DNA from: an uncultured Clostridia bacterium
GTDB lineage: Bacteria; Bacillota; Clostridia; Oscillospirales; Oscillospiraceae
Length of the DNA stretch: 64,000 bases
Reading direction: 5' to 3'
Assembly (NCBI GenBank): GCA_947649615.1
Contig: CANSSG010000002.1
Span: forward strand, 62,001-126,000
Within the stretch, counting starts at the first letter, position 1. The number at the start of each line of letters is the position of its first letter. Position numbers and translations under genes: made by a program. Shown piece by piece: positions 14,370-42,754 of this stretch. Under the pieces are notes generated by a model. That model was not told the DNA's origin and did not search any database. It saw only the letters and a list, made by a program, of their open reading frames with translations.

Positions 14370-15644
14370 TTATGTTTCTTCTCCTCCGGCGCCAACGCCG
14401 GTATTCATAAGCTGCTGCCAGATATTGTTCACATCGTCCAAGCACTGGAAGTAGATTTCCGGGAGCCGGTCCATCGGCAGCCCCAATTCCTCGCCCAAAC
14501 GGTTGATGGCGGCCCAGTCCGCCCGCTCATACGCCAAAATCAGGTCGTACAGCATCCCGGGACGGCCCTCATGATGGAGCAGCGCATTCTTGACATCCGT
14601 GGAAATCGCCACCTCTGCCAAGATTTCCTCCAACGGGGCCGCAATCAAAAACGGCAGCGTGGAGAACATACCCATCAGATAGGCGTCGTTGCGGTTGATT
14701 GGCATGCTCTTGGCGTACCGCATCAGTTCGCTGGCAAAGGAAGCCCTGCTGAAGGACAGCTTCAGCATCTCCTCCTGGTTCTCGTCCATCTCGCCCTTCT
14801 CGTTGCTGCACCCCATCAGGTAAATCCACTGGCGGAGCTGTCCCAGCCCCAGAATGGTTACCGCCTGATGAACGCTGGTGGCCCGGTTGCGCAGGGCGAA
14901 GTAGGCAGAGTTGACAATTCGCAGCAGGCTGTAGGTTAAAGTGGCGTCCATCGAGATGATCTGCTCGATCTCCTCCACCTCCGGCTCATCCTTGGTGACG
15001 GCAATCAGCAGCCGGAAGAAGTTGCTTTGCAAATAGCTGCTGGAATGGACGGCGGTGAACATCTGCTCGGCGGCGTAGCGCCCGCACATGGCGTCCATGC
15101 CCAGGATAAAAGCTTTCTGATACAAATCCTCATCATCCACCCCGGTAGCCACGCACTTCTTGCCCATGCTGTGGACCATCTCAGCCAGCCGCTTGACGCT
15201 CTTGTCGTCCACATGATGGAAATCCACCATCACGTAATCAAAGTGCCGCAGGTTGGAGATGTAGCGGGGCGCAAACTGAAAGTCCTTCACCGCGATGGAG
15301 TAGCCCTCCTGATGGTACCGCTCCAAAAAGCGCATCGCCAGGGGGTGGATAATGGCGCTTTCCGTCACCTCAATTACCAGGTCCTCCGGCGCAAACAGCT
15401 TGGGCGTGTTCTTCATGAGCAGATTGGTGGTGAAGGTCATAAAGTTCTTGCCGTCCTTCAGCGCGCCTTCCCCCGCCTGGGTCAGGAAGTTATAAATCGT
15501 TTCCGCCGCCAGGAAGTCCTGGCCCGCTTCCTCGTTATACCCGTAATTCTCTCCGGTGTACCGGATTTCATAGCCCAGAATATTCCCCTGCAAATCCTTG
15601 ATTGGCTGGCGGACGATATATTTAGTCTTAGCGATTTTGGCCAT
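14370..15644 (-). CDS. EAL (degenerate) plus HDOD domain signalling protein
   Basis: 424 residues. The N-terminal half has an EAL fold (residues 1-190) in which the signature is YEIRYT rather than E-A-L/V-L, and few metal-binding acids remain, so phosphodiesterase activity is unlikely. The C-terminal half is an HDOD domain (about 200-400; MDATLTYSLLRIVNSAYFALRN, then SVHQAVTILGLGQLRQW). This is the YuxH-type architecture, usually a cyclic-di-GMP-linked scaffold. It is the last gene of the fla/che operon, 25 bp after cheV. Confidence 0.88.
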   Translation of the reverse strand: MAKIAKTKYIVRQPIKDLQGNILGYEIRYTGENYGYNEEAGQDFLAAETIYNFLTQAGEGALKDGKNFMTFTTNLLMKNTPKLFAPEDLVIEVTESAIIHPLAMRFLERYHQEGYSIAVKDFQFAPRYISNLRHFDYVMVDFHHVDDKSVKRLAEMVHSMGKKCVATGVDDEDLYQKAFILGMDAMCGRYAAEQMFTAVHSSSYLQSNFFRLLIAVTKDEPEVEEIEQIISMDATLTYSLLRIVNSAYFALRNRATSVHQAVTILGLGQLRQWIYLMGCSNEKGEMDENQEEMLKLSFSRASFASELMRYAKSMPINRNDAYLMGMFSTLPFLIAAPLEEILAEVAISTDVKNALLHHEGRPGMLYDLILAYERADWAAINRLGEELGLPMDRLPEIYFQCLDDVNNIWQQLMNTGVGAGGEET

Positions 15645-15669: not shown

Positions 15670-16587
15670 TTAGAGAGCGGCCTTCTCCAGCAGATGGTCC
15701 ATTACATCCACCAGATGCCCAATCTCCGGCTTGGTCAACTGCTCGTCAGCGCCAAGCTGCCGGCCCTTGATCCGCATTTCCTCGCTGATCAGGGAGGAGA
15801 AGATAATCAGCGGAATATTCTTAAACCGCGGGCTGTCCTTCACCAGCTTGGTCAGGCGGTGGCCGTCCATCTGGGGCATTTCGATATCGGTAATAATCAG
15901 CGCCACCTGCTTCTCCAGGTTGCCCTCCGGCAGGGCGCTGAGCGCCTCCCACAGCTCCCGGCCGTCGGAGAACATCTGCAAATTCACATAGTTGGCCTTC
16001 CGCAGGGAATCCCCGATCATCTTGCTGAGCAGGATGGAGTCTTCTGCCACCCAGATGGGCTTTTCATTGCGGTCCCGCGGCCCAAGGCTCTCCACCTCGG
16101 ACATCTGAATACTGGTCTCCGGGGCGATCTCCGCCACGATGCGCTCAAAGTCGAGGATGGTAACCAGTTCGCCGTCGCACTGGGCGATGCCGGTGGCCAC
16201 GCCTTCCGCGCCGCCGGACACGGTCTTGTCGGGCTTCTGGATGTCGGTCCAGGAAATCCGGCTGATCCGGTCCACCGTATGGACGCGGAAAGCGATAAAC
16301 ATCTTGTTAAAGTTGGTGATGATAAAAATATCCTTGGGATTCTTCTCGCTCTCCTCCCCCAGGTACCGGGGCAGGTCCACCACTGTAAGCACAGCGTCCC
16401 TGGGCTTGAAGATCCCCTCCACCGCCGGGTGCGCATGGGGCATGGGCTTGACCGGCTCGGAAATCATAATCTCGCGGACCTTGGCCACGTTAATGCCGTA
16501 GAGATTTCCCCCGATGGTAAACTTCATGATCTCAATCTCATTGGTACCGGACTCCAGAAGGATCCGGCTGTTTTGCGTATCAGCCAT
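15670..16587 (-). CDS. cheV: Chemotaxis coupling/response protein CheV
   Basis: 305 residues from the ATG at 16587 (MADTQNSRILLESG), preferred over a longer frame that lacks a ribosome binding site. The N-terminal CheW domain (about 1-160) contains NEIEIMKFTIGGNLYGINVAKVREI in register with other CheV proteins. The C-terminal receiver domain (about 175-300) has the acidic pocket VAEDS and the phospho-acceptor in LIITDIEMPQMDG. CheV couples receptors to CheA and aids adaptation by phosphorylation. With no cheW in the window, it is the only coupling protein here. Confidence 0.93.
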   Translation of the reverse strand: MADTQNSRILLESGTNEIEIMKFTIGGNLYGINVAKVREIMISEPVKPMPHAHPAVEGIFKPRDAVLTVVDLPRYLGEESEKNPKDIFIITNFNKMFIAFRVHTVDRISRISWTDIQKPDKTVSGGAEGVATGIAQCDGELVTILDFERIVAEIAPETSIQMSEVESLGPRDRNEKPIWVAEDSILLSKMIGDSLRKANYVNLQMFSDGRELWEALSALPEGNLEKQVALIITDIEMPQMDGHRLTKLVKDSPRFKNIPLIIFSSLISEEMRIKGRQLGADEQLTKPEIGHLVDVMDHLLEKAAL

Positions 16588-16634
16588 TTTTCTAACGCTC
16601 CCATCTCTTAAATTTTGCCATACATCCGCTTTAC

Positions 16635-17114
16635 TTAGAAAAGTACGTCCTGCCGGCCATAAGACCGAATACATCCCTGTCCGGTGGCCACATCAAACAG
16701 CAGCGTACGCGCCACCGTCCCCCCCACGTCCTCGGCGGTCAGGCGGATGCCCTCCTGCCGCAGGATCGTGTGGACGCTTTCGATATTCCGCTGTCCAATG
16801 TTGCCAAGGCTTCCGCCGTTGACCTCAAACATCTTGGCTCCGCCTGCAATCTTTACCGTGATCCGGGTTTTCAGCGCCCCCTTGGCGGTCATCTGCCGCA
16901 GGGTCTCCCGGATGCCGGTGTCCGCGTATTTAAACGCGTTTTTCCGGCCCGCCTCCAGGTTCATAGGCAGCATCACATGCAGCAGGGCACCCAGCCGCAG
17001 CGCCGGATCCTCAAAGCATAGTCCGATGCACGACCCAAGGGCATAGGTAATCAGCACCCCGGTGCCCTTGGCCATTTTCATATCCGCAATTCCGACAGTT
17101 ATCTTCTCATTCAT
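16635..17114 (-). CDS. cheD: Chemoreceptor glutamine deamidase CheD
   Basis: 159 residues, the family length. The catalytic pair is visible as Cys29 (TYALGSCIGLCF) and His46 (GALLHVMLP), and the ARNIESV-like segment appears as IGQRNIESVHTILRQEGI. CheD deamidates receptor glutamines and binds CheC, stimulating its phosphatase activity. Its start overlaps the cheC stop codon by 4 bp, so the two partners are coupled in translation. Confidence 0.95.
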   Translation of the reverse strand: MNEKITVGIADMKMAKGTGVLITYALGSCIGLCFEDPALRLGALLHVMLPMNLEAGRKNAFKYADTGIRETLRQMTAKGALKTRITVKIAGGAKMFEVNGGSLGNIGQRNIESVHTILRQEGIRLTAEDVGGTVARTLLFDVATGQGCIRSYGRQDVLF

Positions 17115-19360: not shown

Positions 19361-20176
19361 TTACCTTTCCCCGTTCATATATTGCTGCATATACAGTTTA
19401 AGCTTCTGAATCGCCCGGGAGTGTATCTGGGAGATACGGGGTTCGCTGACCTCCATCACCTGGGCGATTTCCTTCATGCTGAGGTTTTTCCGGTAATACA
19501 GGGACACCACCATCTGCTCATTCTCCCGCAGGGACGCGATGCCGTCGGTCAAGGTATCCAGCAGTTCCCGCCGCAGCAGGGAATCCTCCGGCCGGCCCGT
19601 ACCGCCGCTGTCCGCCACATCCACCCCGCCCTGGTCCTGGTCGTCGAAGATAGAATCCAGGCTCAGCAGATTACATAAAGCAGAATTTGCCAAATCCTCC
19701 TGATACTGCTGGGACGTAACGCCAAGGCGCTGGGCAATCTCCTCGTCGGTAGGGCTGCGCCCCAGCTCGTTGTAAAGCTCCACGCTGGCCCGGTCGATCT
19801 CCCTGGCCTTGCGCCGTACGCTGCGGGGGACCCAGTCCTGGCGGCGGGCCAGGTCAATGACCGCGCCCCGGATCCGTTTAGAGACGAAGGTTTCAAACTT
19901 GATGCCCTTGCCGGGGTCGAACTTGTCGATCGCCCCCACCAGAGCCAACACGCCTTCATTGATGATGTCATCCACCTGGGCAAAGCTGGAGTAGACGCCC
20001 CGCACCTGCAAGGCAATGGACTTCACCAGCCCCACATACCGCAGCGCCAAGGTCCATTTCAGTTCTTGGCACCCGCTGGAACGGTAGAGCAGGAGGAGGT
20101 CCTCCTTGCTCATGGCGTCTAGCTGCTCCTGGGTATAGCCCAGCTCAGGGATCACCGGGGCGGCCCGGGCGCTCAT
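19361..20176 (-). CDS. fliA: Flagellar RNA polymerase sigma factor FliA (sigma-28/SigD)
   Basis: 271 residues. Region 2 includes [30 protein letters not shown] and [16 protein letters not shown]; region 4 ends with [38 protein letters not shown], each recognisable as the FliA/WhiG family. Its start overlaps the flhA stop codon by 4 bp. It should read the sigma-28-type promoters seen before fliD and flgM in this window and be held back by FlgM, encoded at 48325-48630. Confidence 0.96.
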
Positions 20177-22411: not shown

Positions 22412-23485
22412 TCATTCCCCAGCGCCGCCGTCCTGGTCCAGCTTGAGCACATAGACCAAAACCTCGGCCACCGGGCCGTAAAGGTCGAAAGGAATCTGAT
22501 AATTCAGTTCCGTCTCGGCGTAAAGGCTTCTTGCCAGCGGCACGTTTTCCACCACGGCCACCCCGTTGTCCTCGGCCACCTGCACGATGCGCAGGGCCAA
22601 CTCGTCCAAGCCTTTCGCCACCACCACAGGCGCATCGTCCTGATCGGGTTTGTACCGCAGCGCCACCGCGACGTGTGTGGGGTTACGGATAACCACATCC
22701 GCGCCCGGCACCTGCTGCATCATACGCTGTTGGGCGCGGCGGCGCTGAATCTCCTTGATTTTCCCCTTGACCTGGGGATCGCCTTCGGTTTGCTTGTATT
22801 CTTCCTTGACTTCCTGTTTCGACATTTTGAGCTGCCGCTCATAGTCCCACCACTGGTAGAAGTAGTCCGCCGCCGCCAAGGCGATAAAGGCGATGGCCAC
22901 CCGCAGCACCAGGTTGAAAATGTCATCGACAAGAATGGCGCAGGCCTCGCTGATCTCCATATCCAGGAACCGTGCAAAGCCAAGGGCCACGCTTTGAAAG
23001 TAATCGTAAATTAAAAAGAGCAGGATGCCGATTTTCAGCAGTCCTTTCAGCGCCTCCACGACGCTGCGCAGGGAAAACAGCCGTTTAAAGCCCTGCAAGG
23101 GATTGATCCGGCTGAACTTAGGCTTCAGCGACTCGCCGCTGACCAGCAGCTTTGTCTGGGCAAAGGTGGCTGACACCGCCAGCACCAGGGTCACCAGCAG
23201 GAACGGCCCTGCCACGATAGCAACCGTCTTCAGCGCAAAATACGCCAGCGGCCGCAGGATGCCGGGCATATCCGCCGGCGCGGTGCTGGAAATGAACCCG
23301 AAACAGGTGCGGAACATGTTCTCCGCCTGTTCGCTTATCACATTCCCCATTACCCGGAACATCACCAAGCTTCCGATCAGCGTAGCGACGGCCACAACGT
23401 CCTTGCTCATCATGACGTTGCCCTTTTTTCGCTCGTCTCGCCGCTTTTTTGGGGTTGCTTTTTCGGTCTTGGATTCGCCGGCCAC
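22412..23485 (-). CDS. flhB: Flagellar export switch protein FlhB
   Basis: 357 residues with a GTG start. Four membrane segments in the first ~210 residues are followed by a cytosolic domain with the autocleavage site NPTH (268-271), intact. The N-terminus is the usual TEKATPKKRRDERKKGNV basic stretch. FlhB switches export from hook to filament substrates after cleavage and a signal from FliK. It lies 148 bp upstream of flhA in the operon. Confidence 0.96.
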   Translation of the reverse strand: MAGESKTEKATPKKRRDERKKGNVMMSKDVVAVATLIGSLVMFRVMGNVISEQAENMFRTCFGFISSTAPADMPGILRPLAYFALKTVAIVAGPFLLVTLVLAVSATFAQTKLLVSGESLKPKFSRINPLQGFKRLFSLRSVVEALKGLLKIGILLFLIYDYFQSVALGFARFLDMEISEACAILVDDIFNLVLRVAIAFIALAAADYFYQWWDYERQLKMSKQEVKEEYKQTEGDPQVKGKIKEIQRRRAQQRMMQQVPGADVVIRNPTHVAVALRYKPDQDDAPVVVAKGLDELALRIVQVAEDNGVAVVENVPLARSLYAETELNYQIPFDLYGPVAEVLVYVLKLDQDGGAGE

Positions 23486-41956: not shown

Positions 41957-42352
41957 TTACTGCCCCCGGATCGCCGTCAGCAGCCGGCCCATATCCTTGC
42001 TGATTGCCCGGTACACATGCTGGATCTGATATGCGTTGCGCACCAGTTCAATGGACTGCTCCGAGACGTTGACGCCGTTCTCGTCCAGCCGGGCGGACTC
42101 ATCCACGGCGGTGTGGACCACCGGCGCGGACGCGGCGATGGCGCTGCGCATTGCCGCCTGGGGGGACTGTCCGGTCCGGGCGGCCTGCCGGATGCTGGAA
42201 CGCAGGGCTTCCTCGAAAGTGACATATTTAACCTTATACTCGGGGGTCTCGGCGTTGCTGATATTATCCAGGATCGCCCGCTGCTTAGTCCATTGGAAGT
42301 GGGCTGCTTTTTCCAGCATCATCATGGAGTTGGATGTGAAAAAGTCCGACAT
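41957..42352 (-). CDS. flgB: Flagellar proximal rod protein FlgB
   Basis: 131 residues from the ATG at 42352 (MSDFFTSNSMMMLEKA), preceded by GGAGG nine bases upstream; a longer frame lacks such a site. The QWTKQRAILDNISNAETPEYK motif is the FlgB hallmark. First gene of the 28 kb fla/che operon. Confidence 0.94.
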   Translation of the reverse strand: MSDFFTSNSMMMLEKAAHFQWTKQRAILDNISNAETPEYKVKYVTFEEALRSSIRQAARTGQSPQAAMRSAIAASAPVVHTAVDESARLDENGVNVSEQSIELVRNAYQIQHVYRAISKDMGRLLTAIRGQ

Positions 42353-42503
42353 AGCCAACGTCCTCCATTTCAAAAAATCACAATATTTCTTCTATCTTTT
42401 GCGGAAAATGCCGCCCATTTTGTGAAAAAACCATCTTCAAAAGGGGGCGTTGAATACAGCCCCGACCCACGCGCGGCAATGCAGGATATTGATAACAGGG
42501 TTA

Positions 42504-42532
42504 ATTATACTATATTCTGTCGAAATAAGCAA
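42504..42532 (-). promoter_or_regulatory. Vegetative (sigma-A) promoter of the fla/che operon
   Basis: On the minus strand TTGCTT, 17 bases, TATAAT, pointing at flgB about 150 bp away. The -10 is perfect and the -35 matches 4 of 6. The surrounding 42373-42660 stretch is AT-rich and holds no gene; it contains this promoter and the Spo0A-type boxes described separately. Confidence 0.75.
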
Positions 42533-42607
42533 GAACAAAATCTAAAATTGTCGAAATCATCCATACCCTGTCGCACTTTGCGGCAAAATTTTGCTATATT
42601 TCCGACA
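42518..42607. promoter_or_regulatory. Cluster of Spo0A-type (0A) boxes at the fla/che promoter
   Basis: TGTCGAA occurs exactly at 42518-42524 and 42549-42555 (31 bp apart, same orientation, shared TGTCGAAAT). One-mismatch versions are TGTCGCA at 42569-42575 and, on the other strand, TGTCGGA at 42601-42607. The 0A consensus is TGTCGAA. The first box lies inside the -10/-35 spacer, the others upstream, so bound Spo0A could block or modulate flgB transcription. Confidence 0.6.
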
Positions 42608-42683: not shown

Positions 42684-42720
42684 AAAACACCCACAGGCCA
42701 TAATATGCGGCCCGTGGGTG
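42684..42720 (-). terminator. Terminator of the flgM-csrA operon
   Basis: On the minus strand a 12-bp stem (cacccacgggcc / ggcctgtgggtg, one G-U pair) with a 9-base loop is followed by ttttccttttct. It lies just past csrA and separates that operon from the flgB promoter region. Confidence 0.88.
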
Positions 42721-42754
42721 CAGTATGACGTTTGCATGGAAAAAGGGGGACAGC

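Follow-up and report, generated by a model that had tools for sequence, protein, structure and literature searches.

Organisation of the csrA-flgB locus

The stretch of DNA analysed here, referred to below as the window, comprises 64,000 nucleotides of an uncultured, spore-forming member of the Oscillospiraceae of gut type. Its minus strand carries a block of motility genes downstream of the csrA-flgB gap, which encodes FlgB, CheC, CheD, a CheV-like protein and a FliA/WhiG sigma factor. The following features frame the block:

41957-42352, minus strand: flgB, the first gene of the flagellar and chemotaxis operon (best match TIGR01396 FlgB, 53.9 bits, just below the cut-off)
19361-20176, minus strand: FliA/WhiG (sigma-D type) gene, within the block downstream of flgB (TIGR02479, E 7e-68)
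15670-16674, minus strand: CheV-like gene at the far end of the block, an open reading frame whose CheW-like plus receiver arrangement was read from the sequence
42687-42721, minus strand: terminator-like hairpin after csrA, with a 14-bp stem

Because a hairpin terminator separates csrA from flgB, flgB is expected to have a promoter of its own. A search of the flgB leader against Rfam returned no riboswitch family above its gathering score, only sub-threshold chance matches; by the same score, the c-di-GMP riboswitch of the C. difficile type of flgB leader is absent. Where the flagellar block ends, the protein encoded immediately beyond the cheV-like gene (window positions 14370-15644, minus strand) gives a weak EAL/HmsP-type match and is possibly a c-di-GMP or HDOD-like signalling protein.

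The flgB promoter and its 0A boxes

The flgB promoter reads TTGCTT, 17 bp, TATAAT on the minus strand (42532-42504). Several matches to TGTCGAA, the 0A box of Spo0A, lie within or upstream of it:

42504-42509, minus strand: -10 element TATAAT of the flgB promoter
42518-42524, plus strand: second perfect TGTCGAA box, within the 17-bp spacer and species-specific (the spacer box)
42527-42532, minus strand: -35 element TTGCTT; CTTGC is invariant in all genus representatives
42539-42545, plus strand: degenerate half-box candidate AATCTAA, 10 bp from the distal box
42549-42555, plus strand: distal 0A box TGTCGAA (TTGTCGAAA including flanks), TTCGACA on the flgB strand
42569-42575, plus strand: one-mismatch box TGTCGCA, 20 bp beyond the distal box
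42601-42607, minus strand: one-mismatch box TGTCGGA

The distal box starts 46 bp upstream of the -10 element and is centred at about -55. The two perfect boxes lie on the plus strand with a spacing of 31 bp, as a preliminary description of this DNA had it. That description also listed the two one-mismatch boxes; both are present, but they are weak as evidence. On a matrix trained solely on spo0A and spoIIA boxes, with a maximum of 15.5 bits, the distal and spacer boxes score 13.9 and 14.1, whereas TGTCGCA and TGTCGGA score 3.5 and 4.7, and these two were dropped as evidence for Spo0A. When relatives are aligned, only the GACAG portion of TGTCGCA is semi-conserved; TGTCGGA is unconserved and probably not a site.

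Two further elements were noted in the window. A promoter-like sequence on the opposite strand (TTGATA-16-TATATT, 42489-42516, plus strand) points antisense into csrA. A box scoring 13.7 of 15.5 bits occurs at 22818-22824 (minus strand), inside the open reading frame 22412-23485 of the flagellar block, and is probably due to chance.

Could the boxes at the promoter also be chance occurrences of a common 7-mer? Across the whole window TGTCGAA is not enriched (six perfect copies against 5.2 expected), which is what such an explanation would predict. Local density speaks against it. The 402-bp csrA-flgB gap contains two perfect boxes against 0.029 expected (P ~0.00015, or about 1 in 7,000 shuffles), and none of 20,000 shuffles placed two boxes in the 100-bp promoter. 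The paired arrangement TTCGACA-N3..40-TTCGACA occurs a single time in the 2.65-Mb genome, at the flgB promoter; a reversed control pattern of the pair occurs twice, so the rarity of the pair alone proves little. Together with the conservation and the family-wide enrichment described below, the local density makes a chance origin very improbable.

Spo0A and its reference targets in the genome

Is there a Spo0A protein to bind these boxes? The preliminary description had made its proposal depend on a spo0A gene, and the genome encodes a single Spo0A_C protein (profile match, 159 bits). Its DNA-binding domain aligns over the full length with the solved Spo0A domains 1lq1 and 1fc3, and the stretch SRVERAIRHAIEVAW is identical. 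The same core box is described in the B. subtilis and C. difficile literature, with contacts to G2, C4 and G5 (PMC3485338).

Upstream regions of spo0A and spoIIA, located by tblastn, supply reference sites. In this genome and its relatives, a NTTCGACAAA box lies upstream of spoIIA and several boxes lie upstream of spo0A; both the spoIIA box (TTTCGACAAA) and those of spo0A are retained among the relatives. The flgB promoter resembles the abrB and spo0A promoters in having multiple boxes, some of them degenerate, and the upstream region of the organism's own spo0A likewise has boxes 30 bp apart. A genome-wide word count gave 76 matches, of which 19 are perfect (TTGTCGAA[AT]) and the remainder are the A variant (TTGTCAAA[AT]); the 19 perfect words include the sites ahead of spo0A, the spoIIA operon and flgB.

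Another strong box, TTGTCGAAT, is found at L129:1501-1509 (C27:17824-17832 in the organism's own genome), in the gap between two divergent genes for a membrane permease-like protein and a small cysteine-rich protein. From its sequence, this gap is a candidate for a further Spo0A target. The genome (G000; 95.8% complete) gave no TIGR02865 match for SpoIIE, while all nine relatives tested have one; the gene may fall in an assembly gap.

Conservation of the distal box

Whole genomes belonging to the family and the genus, together with named contigs, supplied 90 flgB upstream regions, 70 of them non-redundant. The core promoter, CTTGC...TATWMT, is conserved throughout the genus. The nearest flagellated relatives share a conserved block, TTCGACAATTTTNGATTTTT-NN-CTTGC, which contains the distal box at a distance of exactly 46 bp from the -10. 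This distance holds in nine regions (L002, L032, L033, L003, L036, L035, L004, L042 and L073); the box has one mismatch in L035 and L042 and is the A variant in L073. The variants TTTGACA (L073) and TTTCGACAAA (L004) still fit the TTTGTCRAA consensus. Four genus members (L038, L005, L006 and L185) have no good box at the distal position. When up to two mismatches are allowed, G000, G029 and G184 each have a single match to the extended block, in every case at flgB, and 400 family genomes contain just three other scattered two-mismatch matches to it.

In an ungapped nine-species set anchored on CTTGC, mean column conservation is 0.95 for the distal box and 0.93 for the adjoining A/T tract; the 50 bp upstream average 0.66, and the sequence following the -10 element 0.45. 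The spacer box shows a different pattern. Its stretch is only 25-38% identical in the five closest relatives and is thus unconserved, and the box is possibly a chance gain; TTCGACA is found close to this position of the spacer in an Intestinimonas-type genome (L010/L048). The expectation that the boxes would be conserved in relatives is therefore borne out for the distal box, which keeps a fixed position at orthologous promoters, and not for the spacer box.

Does the conserved block instead serve another regulator, or RNA polymerase as an UP element, and resemble a 0A box only incidentally? The A/T tract beside the box is nearly as well conserved as the box itself, and L006 and L042 retain TTTGATT better than TTCGACA. 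This TTTGATT is the half-box candidate read on the opposite strand; it is AATCAAA in most relatives and AATCTAA in the window. At the 10-bp spacing of tandem 0A boxes, AATCAAA/AATCTAA makes four to five of the seven box matches within an A/T-rich tract, which is no more than suggestive, at the level of sequence, of the second half of a tandem 0A site; it could alternatively be part of an A/T-rich UP element. An UP element, however, has no need of the C and G positions in the box core. These genomes also carry the box word at spo0A and spoIIA, and 0A boxes occur elsewhere near the flgB promoter in different genera. An incidental likeness to 0A is, for these reasons, quite unlikely.

Some relatives have additional elements upstream of flgB. 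In L003 and L036, TGTCAAA (the A variant, GGAAATCTGTCAAAA) lies about 41 bp upstream of the distal box, where the aligned window sequence is GGAAATATAGCAAAA. A second sigma-A-like promoter of the TTGATT...TATAAT type is found about 45-60 bp ahead of flgB in L042, L073 and L005, and in L005 a perfect 0A box directly follows its -10 element.

Gain and loss of boxes across the family

How widespread is the arrangement? A strong box is present in 8 of 14 flgB upstream regions from the genus (0.45 expected) and in 6 of 24 from other genera (0.68 expected), counts that are not independent across species because the species are related. None was found in the 32 further flgB upstream regions, which include the whole Lawsonibacter/Flintibacter clade, so that control of flgB by Spo0A is not general. 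Box density reaches 0.65/kb in flgB upstream regions and 0.039/kb in neighbouring DNA at the same loci, a difference of about 17-fold.

The boxes also differ in position. In other genera they lie 37 bp before the -10 element (L011, L019 and L020), in the spacer (L010) or downstream of the -10 element (L014). A helical phasing that would link all of these positions was considered and set aside, since a spread of 1-2 bp makes the argument unsafe. On a FlgB-FlgC tree, in which L016 is a long branch of unsure placement, the presence of the box needs at least eight changes, four of them forced by well-supported branches. The varied positions and the changes on the tree suggest that Spo0A input came and went several times. 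It is tentatively proposed that the flgB promoter of Oscillospiraceae carries an evolutionarily labile Spo0A switch, with boxes repeatedly gained and lost at several places around a conserved core promoter; species would then differ in whether, and how tightly, sporulation stops motility. We regard this broader picture as a real possibility, held with less than even confidence.

Repression or activation?

The preliminary description proposed that Spo0A-P could directly switch off, or adjust, the operon from flgB to cheV. The first part of this proposal, direct input, is well supported by the sequence, while the sign of the effect is something we infer. It is likely that flgB...fliA...cheV is transcribed from a sigma-A-type promoter in the csrA-flgB gap and that this promoter receives direct, probably repressing, input from Spo0A~P. 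That Spo0A~P would lower and not raise transcription of flgB-cheV is suggested by the anatomy of the promoter and by other clostridia (PMC4028888, PMC3395874).

Spo0A~P would bind the distal 0A box, just upstream of the -35 element, possibly as a dimer that also uses the degenerate half-box at about -45, 10 bp nearer the -35. In the window species, it would additionally occupy the newly gained box between the -35 and -10 elements. Rising Spo0A~P would then shut off the flagellar and chemotaxis genes and the FliA sigma factor; as the block includes the FliA/WhiG gene, the late flagellar genes should stop too. Repression is favoured because the -35 and -10 elements are already good and because a protein occupying the spacer should keep RNA polymerase out.

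The spacer box is the best argument for repression, yet it is missing from the closest relatives, and the position of the conserved distal box upstream of the -35 is compatible with activation as well. Spo0A~P at the distal box could activate the operon, so that cells in the transition state, not yet committed, would show a burst of motility, with the spacer box as a later, local brake. Activator sites typically show such a conserved, fixed spacing (here 46 bp) immediately ahead of the -35; the strong boxes at 37 bp in three other genera are about one helical turn closer, and the spoIIA box, 28 bp ahead of a TATAAT, has an activator-like placement. Classic Spo0A-activated sigma-A promoters do not have a good pair of -35 and -10 elements, unlike flgB, where both are good. 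The spacer boxes of the window species and of L010/L048 would oppose activation, and Spo0A lowers flagellar expression in C. difficile (PMC4028888). Activation is thus considered unlikely, though less so than an incidental likeness to 0A.

For the repression that we favour, overlap with the promoter is no proof in itself, as the Ps promoter of B. subtilis illustrates: there, Spo0A binds at 0A4, which overlaps the -10 element, without repressing (PMC12090719). At abrB and Pv of B. subtilis, boxes downstream of the promoter act as roadblocks (PMC12090719), in contrast to the upstream and spacer positions found here.

Spo0A and motility in other species

Control of motility by Spo0A has itself been reported or proposed in Bacillus and Clostridium. 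According to the account in PMC3395874, which cites Molle et al. 2003, the flagellar/motility operon of B. subtilis is under negative Spo0A control. The TGTCGAA box and the DNA-binding domain are shared between B. subtilis and the window species; what differs here is the presence of strong boxes within the flgB promoter itself, in Oscillospiraceae and in a csrA-flgB arrangement.

The flgB gene of C. beijerinckii is down 6-7 fold during stationary phase, and repression has been proposed for 0A boxes lying near motility operons (PMC3395874). The same account, citing Tomas 2003 and Paredes 2005, describes 0A boxes upstream of chemotaxis/motility operons in C. acetobutylicum and C. beijerinckii and suggests negative control. 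As summarised there, the evidence from these two species consists of box matches, whereas the present case adds conservation anchored on the promoter.

In C. difficile, mutation of spo0A gives hyperflagellate cells in which flgB and further flagellar genes are expressed more strongly; apart from CD0241-0244, no consensus box turned up in the upstream regions of the flagellar genes (PMC4028888). The effect of Spo0A there is possibly indirect, in contrast to the perfect boxes at the flgB promoter described here. A search of the open-licence literature found no report of Spo0A control of flgB in Oscillospiraceae. What is new is thus a well-resolved, conserved site and its pattern of turnover in this family.

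While no direct flagellar site was found in C. difficile, the Oscillospiraceae lineage studied here seems to show direct wiring. Judging by the promoter sequences, the decision to form spores probably has a direct effect on swimming ability, and that effect is most likely to switch it off. This may help to explain how commensal spore-formers of the gut cease to swim on commitment, and the lineages with and without the box provide a natural test of whether the sporulation-linked shut-off of motility is direct.
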